Source: Flavobacteriia bacterium (GTDB lineage: Bacteria > Bacteroidota > Bacteroidia > Flavobacteriales_D > Crocinitomicaceae). From it: a stretch of 36,392 nt of DNA. Within the stretch, counting starts at the first letter, position 1; every line of letters begins with the position of its first letter. The DNA lies in the NCBI GenBank assembly GCA_947463445.1, contig CANHRS010000020.1, forward strand, positions 1 through 36,392, in the 5' to 3' direction. A model generated the notes under the pieces. That model worked only from the letters and a program-made list of their open reading frames with translations. It ran no database searches and was not told where the DNA came from. Below, piece after piece: positions 8,332 to 10,509 of the stretch. Position numbers and translations under genes: made by a program.

Positions 8332-8356
8332 AAAAAGACCTTAGTAAGGTCTTTTT
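8332..8356 (-). terminator. Rho-independent terminator after LysM gene
   Basis: AAAAAGACCTT (8332-8342) and AAGGTCTTTTT (8346-8356) form a perfect 11-bp stem with a 3-base loop and a T-run on each side. On the minus strand it follows the LysM protein stop by 22 bp and precedes the permease. Confidence 0.85.
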
Positions 8357-8378: not shown

Positions 8379-9797
8379 CTATTGAGGAATGATTAATTGT
8401 TGACCTATCTCAATTTTATCATCCGATAAGTTATTTGCTTTACGTATCGCATCCGGTTTTACACCATATTCAGCAGCTAATCCATTAATCGTATTTCCAG
8501 ATTTAACTGTATGACTTTTAGATTTACCAGACTTTACTTTCTTTTCCTCTTTCTTTTTTTCTTCTTTCTTAGGCTCTTTTTCAGCCTTTTTCTCCTCTTT
8601 CTTTTTCTCCTCTTTTTTCTCGATCACTTTTGGTGTGACAGTTGACTCTTCTTTTGGAACGGTCGCCTCCTCTACAACAGCTTCAGTAGAAGTTTCAGTA
8701 GTTGTCTCCTCTTCTTCATTAACTTCCTCTTCTATTTCTTCCTCTTCCTCCTCTTCTTCTTTCTCCGCTTTTTTCGGTTTTTCATACTCCATCAACTCCT
8801 CTAAATCTTGGTGCTGATTCGTCGTGTCTTTTTGTATAACTTCTCCGGCATCATCTAGTACTTTATCCGTGTCATCATGTGGTTGACGGAAAACAAACCA
8901 TATCAAGACAAATAAAGCAACAATAACAGCACCTATCTTAATTGTTTTATTTCTATCTAATGTTATTTTATTAAATAAATTTACTTGTTCTTGCGTTACT
9001 TTTCCTTCAGCTATAGTCGACGCATCAACGACATTGTTATTTTGTGTGCTCGAAGCTGAAATCAATCTTTTTTGAATATTCCCTTCTGTAACCGCAATTA
9101 ATTGAAGTGTAACATTTTCAGGTACGCTCTTTCCTTTAGCTATATCAACTAATTCTAAGATATTCGTATTGATAGAAGCATATTCTATTTTGCTATTCAT
9201 AAAAGTATCATCTAATACTTTTGTAATACCATGCGTACAAACCAATACTACATCGCCTGCTGCTACATCTAACTTAGAAAAACAAACAGTGGGAGAAATA
9301 CTTGGCGTATTCCCCAATGCTTTTGGTAATTTAACCACTGGTTTTGAATAATCTACATCGTTTGATGGATATAATTGAACATCCAAATACCCATGATCAG
9401 TAGTCAAACGCTGTAACTTACCTTCTGATTTTAAATAAACACGTGCATTTCCAATATGTGCATAGTACAAACCTTCTTCACGAACCAATACAACAGCAAC
9501 ACTAGCAAATACACCTTTTAAACCCTCTTCCAAAATAGAAGCACGATATACTTGTTCATTAGCAAATTGAAATGCATGATTCAAGCCAATATATACGTTG
9601 TCAAAAATTTCCTTTTCAAAAAAATCAAGAATACTTTGTACCGCTAAACGAGAAGCAAAACTTCCATTTGCATCCACAGGACTTCCATCTGCAACCACAA
9701 AAACATGTCCGTTCTTGGTTTTTTTATCCCCTAAAGCATCCGAATTAATTGGATGTTTTAACCCTAAATCTGTTTTTGAACAATATGAAACTTTCAT
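8379..9797 (-). CDS. PP2C-like domain, TM segment, LysM: likely pseudophosphatase
   Basis: The 472 residues comprise a PP2C-type domain (about 1-238), a spacer, one membrane segment (287-303, IGAVIVALFVLIWFVF), an acidic tract (346-364), a Lys/Glu-rich tract (391-424) and a C-terminal LysM (427-472, HTVKSGNTINGLAAEYGV...IGQQLIIP). NKTIK before and DD after the membrane span predict PP2C inside and LysM in the periplasm on peptidoglycan. PP2C landmarks are recognisable: NSD (18-20), VVADG (34-38), AHIGNARVYL (113-122), LTTDHGYLD (131-139), LVCTHGI (185-191), PENVT (226-230). But the metal ligands are eroded: Glu of NED is Ser19, Asp of SDG is His189, Asp of DN is Glu227; only Asp37 remains. 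Loss of activity is therefore likely. It lies 75 bp after the FHA gene on the same strand, suggesting joint function. Confidence 0.85.
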   Translation of the reverse strand: MKVSYCSKTDLGLKHPINSDALGDKKTKNGHVFVVADGSPVDANGSFASRLAVQSILDFFEKEIFDNVYIGLNHAFQFANEQVYRASILEEGLKGVFASVAVVLVREEGLYYAHIGNARVYLKSEGKLQRLTTDHGYLDVQLYPSNDVDYSKPVVKLPKALGNTPSISPTVCFSKLDVAAGDVVLVCTHGITKVLDDTFMNSKIEYASINTNILELVDIAKGKSVPENVTLQLIAVTEGNIQKRLISASSTQNNNVVDASTIAEGKVTQEQVNLFNKITLDRNKTIKIGAVIVALFVLIWFVFRQPHDDTDKVLDDAGEVIQKDTTNQHQDLEELMEYEKPKKAEKEEEEEEEEIEEEVNEEEETTTETSTEAVVEEATVPKEESTVTPKVIEKKEEKKKEEKKAEKEPKKEEKKKEEKKVKSGKSKSHTVKSGNTINGLAAEYGVKPDAIRKANNLSDDKIEIGQQLIIPQ

Positions 9798-9872
9798 TCT
9801 ATACGTATATTGATAGTGGTATAAATAGACCTATTTTTGCTAATAAACACATGAAATAAACCAAGCGCTAAA

Positions 9873-10376
9873 TTAAGAAAGAAAAGCAATATATAGCAAT
9901 ATAAACAAGACGATATTTAACACAAAGATATGAACGATAGAAGAATTATGTGTGTAAAAATAATTCCAACGTTGCATCCAGGTAGCATCTTCCGAAAGCG
10001 CTTCTTCAAATAAATATTCCTCCTCAACCGATACTAAACTTGGTAATTCTACCTTATTTTCTATATTTTCGGTGAAGACCAAGTTACTTCTCAATGTTGC
10101 GATTTTTTTGGATACATCAATCGTAGTAACCAACTTTGTCCAATCAAACATGAATTTACCTGCTATAGTCACTTTATCTTTCATAGATAACGTACAAAAA
10201 GCCTTAACTTTTTGTCCATTCACAAACGTTCCTAACTCCGTTTTTAAATCCGAAAGAAAAACATTTCCACGCGCATCTTGAAATAATTCTAAATGATATG
10301 GATTTATTGCCTCATGATTAATTACTACATCATTATCACTTGCACTCCCTACGCGAATTAGTCTTACTTGTTCCAT
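9873..10376 (-). CDS. Tail-anchored FHA-domain protein
   Basis: Starting at the ATG at 10376 (MEQVRLIRVG) the product has 167 residues; a longer start at 10406 is possible but adds ten residues ahead of the first FHA strand. The FHA fold spans about 4-70: IRVGSASDNDVVI, NPYHLELFQDARGNVFLSDL, ELGTFVNG. A helical linker follows, then a C-terminal membrane segment (about 147-166) that makes it tail-anchored with FHA in the cytosol. FHA domains bind phosphothreonine; here the GR Arg is Ser11, the SxxH Ser is Asn25 and the NGT Asn is Leu48, so phosphopeptide binding is doubtful. It precedes the PP2C/LysM gene and probably shares its transcript. Likely a scaffold or membrane partner of that protein. 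Confidence 0.82.
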   Translation of the reverse strand: MEQVRLIRVGSASDNDVVINHEAINPYHLELFQDARGNVFLSDLKTELGTFVNGQKVKAFCTLSMKDKVTIAGKFMFDWTKLVTTIDVSKKIATLRSNLVFTENIENKVELPSLVSVEEEYLFEEALSEDATWMQRWNYFYTHNSSIVHIFVLNIVLFILLYIAFLS

Positions 10377-10509
10377 AAAATAAATTTTTACTCCTGCAAA
10401 ATTCATTATTATTCCAACTCAAAATAGCGAGAGTTAGTGGAATTATCAGATACAAATTGTTGAAAACAAGCAGTCAGTCTACTTTTTTTTTAGTAAATAA
10501 AATTACAAT

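Follow-up and report, generated by a model that had tools for sequence, protein, structure and literature searches.

What does a bacterium keep when it keeps a membrane phosphatase that has lost its catalytic residues? The question is raised by a gene on the minus strand of contig CANHRS010000020.1 of a Flavobacteriia bacterium, which was analyzed over 36,392 nucleotides (the window). An earlier note had placed the gene at 8379-9797 and described its product as a PP2C-like domain joined through one transmembrane (TM) helix and a charged linker to a LysM domain. The open reading frame was recovered at these positions, and the described order of parts agrees with the Pfam matches to PP2C_2 and LysM and with a TM-like helix in the AF2 model. 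The gene and its parts are as follows.

8379..9797, minus strand: gene for a predicted PP2C-like/TM/LysM pseudophosphatase, 472 aa (open reading frame; Pfam; 13/13 genomes of the genus)
9078..9797, minus strand: predicted cytosolic PP2C-fold domain, residues 1-240 (AF2; superposition on tPphA 5d2u)
8886..8945, minus strand: predicted single TM helix, residues ~285-304, with a Lys/Arg-rich N side (N-in) (sequence; AF2 helix 282-304)
8514..8885, minus strand: linker, residues 305-428, Glu-rich and then Lys/Glu-rich (sequence; pLDDT <50 over most of it)
8784..8888, minus strand: conserved, putatively periplasmic juxtamembrane motif RxPxDDTD...DTTNxxQDLxxxMEYE, residues 304-338 (R304, P306, D308, D309, D324, D331 and M336 invariant, n=10 members)
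8385..8513, minus strand: predicted periplasmic LysM domain, residues 429-471 (Pfam LysM, 51.3 bits; dN/dS 0.01-0.07)

Pfam places PP2C_2 (PF13672) at residues 18-192 (1.5e-8) and LysM at residues 429-471 (1.1e-13), the latter with a score far above the cutoff of 20.9 bits. In the AF2 model, built with 25 relatives, the PP2C domain is confident (pLDDT ~90 or higher across most of its length), a TM-like helix spans residues 282-304, the charged linker is disordered, and the LysM domain is again confident. Superposition, the check proposed in the earlier note, revealed an intact PP2C/PPM fold, with Z 30.3 and an rmsd of 1.9 over 211 residues against tPphA 5d2u and Z 28.8 against PstP. A layout of cytosolic PP2C domain, TM helix and periplasmic LysM is thereby supported by sequence and model, from which we infer the topology in cells; the LysM domain is predicted to bind peptidoglycan. 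The motif just past the TM helix is kept even in PP2C-LysM copies of 37-40% identity and suggests a periplasmic contact site.

To read the active site, the PP2C domain was aligned to active tPphA, whose numbering serves as reference; the assignment of tPphA residues to individual metals is well established for the family. The following ligand positions are substituted.

9447..9449, minus strand: Asn117 in place of the M3 ligand Asp (tPphA D119); alignment, N or S in 13/13 genomes
9231..9233, minus strand: His189 in place of the M1/M3 ligand Asp (tPphA D193); alignment, H/Y/N/S/K in 13/13 genomes, never D
9117..9119, minus strand: Glu227 in place of the M1 ligand Asp (tPphA D231); alignment, E, D or G across the genus

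The ligand set of an active PPM phosphatase (D34, G35, D119, D193 and D231 in tPphA numbering) is therefore broken at N117, H189 and E227. The damage extends beyond the metals: the phosphate-binding Arg13 of tPphA is replaced by H15, a position held by His, Asn, Tyr or Ser within the genus, the active-site His39 by D42, and the MG-T-T motif (95-99) is lost and the flap cut short; none of the 13 genomes retains the MGTT or flap motifs. What is retained is part of the M2 site, namely D20 (tPphA D18), D37 (D34) and G38 (G35), which survive in ten members, D37 being E in three of the 13. By analogy with TAB1 and PHLPP2 (PMC12002173), one bound metal at this remnant is possible. The earlier note had listed Ser19 for Glu, His189 for Asp and Glu227 for Asp as lost metal ligands. 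The last two match D193 and D231 in the alignment; Ser19 was correctly positioned but does not count as a strict metal ligand in bacteria, and it is weak evidence of inactivity, because active tPphA itself has Gln (Gln17) at that position, where the relatives in this analysis have Glu. The list also missed N117, H15, D42, the lost MGTT and the shortened flap. His189 was considered as a new metal ligand and rejected, since position 189 varies across the genus.

The distribution of these changes was then assessed. A degenerate copy is present in all 13 genomes of one genus of freshwater Bacteroidota, and the active-site changes hold in 13/13, which excludes chance. In the tree, the 13 copies form one clade with a support of 100/100 and a long stem, and all 45 PP2Cs examined outside the clade (16 sampled in the order and 29 more from the class, with the few alignment gaps read by eye from the sequence) are intact at the catalytic positions. 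Beyond the genus, the inspected loci of 299 genomes in the order and 396 in the class yielded no degenerate copy. Between copies, dN/dS is 0.04-0.12 for the PP2C domain, 0.01-0.07 for the LysM domain and 0.01-0.13 for the FHA domain encoded next door (see below), approximate values given that several dS values are near saturation; the first of these indicates that the PP2C gene is not decaying. In the copies of the genus, 18/36 positions of the catalytic face are invariant vs 88/204 elsewhere (P 0.28), which is background, whereas the active relatives have 30/36 vs 40/204. With catalytic-face conservation down to background and purifying selection in force, the gene is therefore kept, and not for catalysis. 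The idea that the former active site had been turned into a new pocket was also rejected, as conservation is not enriched there. Because the catalytic residues are lost, and the losses are fixed in 13 genomes of one clade under purifying selection, the sequences strongly support the view, already taken in the earlier note, that the domain is a dead phosphatase.

The window genome, 91% complete, holds no PP2C_2 and FHA matches other than this PP2C and the FHA protein adjacent to it. In two genomes of the genus, the dead pair is accompanied by a canonical PP2C that has a canonical Ser/Thr kinase in its vicinity (L052:2372-3988 and L055:499-2115). Other phospho-signaling genes are found in the window genome as well: a cytosolic LRR protein (L080:1294-2598) carries an intact-looking Hanks kinase domain with the VAIK, HGD and DFG motifs intact, most genomes of the genus have similar kinase matches, and SpoIIE-type phosphatase matches are present. 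The idea that all kinases had been lost is thus wrong.

The gene upstream, absent from the earlier note, encodes the FHA protein.

9873..10406, minus strand: tail-anchored FHA protein, upstream of the PP2C gene, with the start more likely at 10376 (167 aa) and a TM helix at the C-terminus, residues 145-166 (Pfam FHA 1.6e-12; alignments; AF2, Foldseek)

Its FHA fold is indicated by the Pfam match and by Foldseek hits to FhaA, GarA and others (rmsd 1.3 over ~67 residues), obtained with a model of only moderate confidence (pLDDT 65). The TM helix of the protein hardly varies. FHA domains bind phosphothreonine through an Arg (GR), a Ser (SR) and an Asn (S/T-N-G). None of the three is present in the window protein, which has Ser11 for Arg, Asn25 for Ser and Leu48 for Asn. 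Across the genus, Gly-Ser stands for the canonical Gly-Arg in 13/13, the Ser has given way to N, A or G, and the Asn is lost in 10/13. The FHA gene adjoins the PP2C gene in 13/13 genomes, and the tree distances of the two correlate at 0.98. After regressing out the tree of the neighboring permease, the one background gene on which this test rests, the correlation stays at 0.98, falling to 0.91 when the most divergent genome is left out; restricted to the seven closest genomes, the partial r of 0.46 (p 0.06) is suggestive only. The FHA protein is the most likely cytosolic partner of the PP2C-LysM protein, and we infer that the two are in contact. Small tail-anchored FHA proteins (L097-L113) are also common in genus g2, where they adjoin parA/parB (neighbor names read from sequence) and rplS and have mostly lost the phosphothreonine residues; relatives in genus g16 keep these residues, and some genomes place them near gyrB. 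Since the g2 relatives beside parA/parB occur without this PP2C, the FHA protein can function in its absence.

The FHA and PP2C-LysM genes are a two-gene operon. Hairpin terminators follow the PP2C gene in most genomes, so the transcription unit is the gene pair; in the window, the candidate lies between that gene and the permease.

8332..8356, minus strand: intrinsic terminator-like hairpin 3' of the PP2C gene, before the permease (hairpins in most relatives, sequence varying)

The downstream amino-acid permease adjoins the pair in the 11/11 genomes with sequence there, but hairpins separate them in most, co-transcription is unsupported, and a functional link was rejected. In six divergent genomes, the gene directly upstream of the pair is homologous among them (L117:5953-7365 and relatives); it belongs to the beta-lactamase2 family (Pfam; one copy scanned) and may hint at a link to peptidoglycan. 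Synonymous sites are unusually conserved over window positions 9708-9971, which run from the last FHA codons into the first PP2C codons: variable sites number 6/24 in FHA codons 136-167 and 6/28 in PP2C codons 1-30, vs a fraction of ~0.7 elsewhere. An embedded regulatory element is possible. RNA structure was rejected for this segment, as covariation is absent and the window has no Rfam match, and so was a conserved promoter, as TAnnTTTG is no commoner in the window than expected by chance.

On balance, we lean towards the view that the FHA and PP2C-LysM proteins form an inner-membrane complex without phosphorylation chemistry, kept as a wall-anchored scaffold or tether. The PP2C-fold domain would serve as a binding surface on the cytosolic face, the helix of the same protein would span the inner membrane, the juxtamembrane motif and the long charged linker would cross the periplasm, and the LysM domain would hold peptidoglycan. 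The phospho-blind, tail-anchored FHA protein would partner the PP2C domain on the cytosolic side, and the presumed scaffold or sensor would perhaps report wall engagement to the cytosol. The pair would descend from active Bacteroidia PP2C-LysM phosphatases, which in sister genera belong to Ser/Thr kinase-phosphatase-FHA clusters. What makes the case interesting is that the FHA protein shares in the loss: it is quite conceivable, though we stop short of calling it probable, that a whole Ser/Thr phosphorylation module, phosphatase and phospho-reader, lost its chemistry in step to become a non-catalytic inner membrane-peptidoglycan complex.

The PP2C-LysM protein could instead sense wall engagement or act as an anchor chiefly together with another protein, e.g., the LRR-kinase or a wall enzyme, the FHA gene being no more than co-transcribed. 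The beta-lactamase2-family neighbor of the divergent genomes and the g2 FHA proteins found without PP2C speak for this reading, which we consider unlikely in view of the strict FHA-PP2C pairing and the matched evolution of the two. Rather more doubtful is a substrate trap, in which the dead phosphatase goes on binding phosphoproteins and protects kinase substrates or competes for them. In its favor, retained substrate binding has been proposed for PHLPP (PMC12002173), and the intact LRR-kinase is present, with counterparts in most of the genus; however, the phosphate-binding Arg and the MGTT and flap motifs are lost too, and conservation of the former catalytic face does not exceed that of the remaining domain. 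It is very improbable that the protein is an active phosphatase in which His189 and Glu227 complete a metal site: His and Glu can bind metals and D20, D37 and G38 remain, but the variation at positions 189, 117 (N/S) and 37 leaves no conserved substitute ligand. That the gene is a decaying remnant heading for loss, as the lost catalytic residues and the long stem branch might suggest, is scarcely credible given strong purifying selection on all folded parts and the absence of stop codons from the copies examined.

Should the pair act as the proposed wall-anchored complex, the reader and the eraser of a phospho-signal would have lost their chemistry together and been kept for structure. The complex would consist of a bacterial pseudophosphatase of the PP2C type, which spans the membrane and carries a wall-binding domain, and of an FHA partner that is phospho-blind, and it would offer a compact two-gene system for testing how a dead phosphatase serves the cell wall. 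No bacterial PP2C pseudophosphatase was found in the literature searched; LysM and inactive members also go unmentioned in a 2025 survey of bacterial PP2Cs (PMC12088040).

The nearest homologs are PP2C-LysM phosphatases of Bacteroidia, which likewise combine an N-terminal PP2C and a C-terminal LysM in one protein but have intact catalytic residues. Within the family, L048 combines an intact PP2C with a C-terminal LysM over the Pfam cut-off, and so do L125, L127, L128, L137 and L138 from other families in the class, which were compared by PP2C and LysM content. The layout is thus shared with homologs whose ligands are intact, a case that the earlier note had itself named as refuting its reading; judged by sequence, it is an ordinary active phosphatase type that only this genus appears to have made dead. 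The active genes of the same family lie in a cluster with Ser/Thr kinase, FHA, vWA, M48 and ABC genes, whereas the window locus has no such cluster; in sister genera, the PP2C gene is clustered with Ser/Thr kinases and FHA-M48, FHA-ABC2 and vWA-FHA genes (some named from sequence, not Pfam).

Mycobacterium tuberculosis PstP and cyanobacterial tPphA share the PP2C fold (Z 29-30), and PstP also has a cytosolic PP2C, a TM helix and an external part; unlike the window protein, both are active two- or three-metal enzymes without LysM. In PASTA-type wall sensor kinases, an external wall-binding domain controls a cytosolic signaling domain, and the likeness here is one of layout alone. Rather than as the "mirror image of PASTA kinases" of the earlier note, the architecture is better described as that of membrane PP2Cs similar to PstP and equipped with a LysM. 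The eukaryotic PPM pseudophosphatases TAB1 and PHLPP2, for which scaffolding has been proposed (PMC12002173), resemble the window protein in their inactive PP2C fold, with M1/M3 ligands lost and M2 partly kept, but have other partner domains and no wall-binding domain. The mycobacterial MviN pseudokinase with FhaA also places a dead signaling domain on a wall-linked membrane protein with an FHA co-worker (PMC12599244); MviN is, however, a pseudokinase, and its binding of FhaA needs phosphorylation by PknB, whereas the window FHA protein lacks the phosphothreonine-binding residues. By analogy, the window pair may work somewhat like MviN-FhaA, with a chemistry that would resemble TAB1 and PHLPP2, while being a member of neither group.
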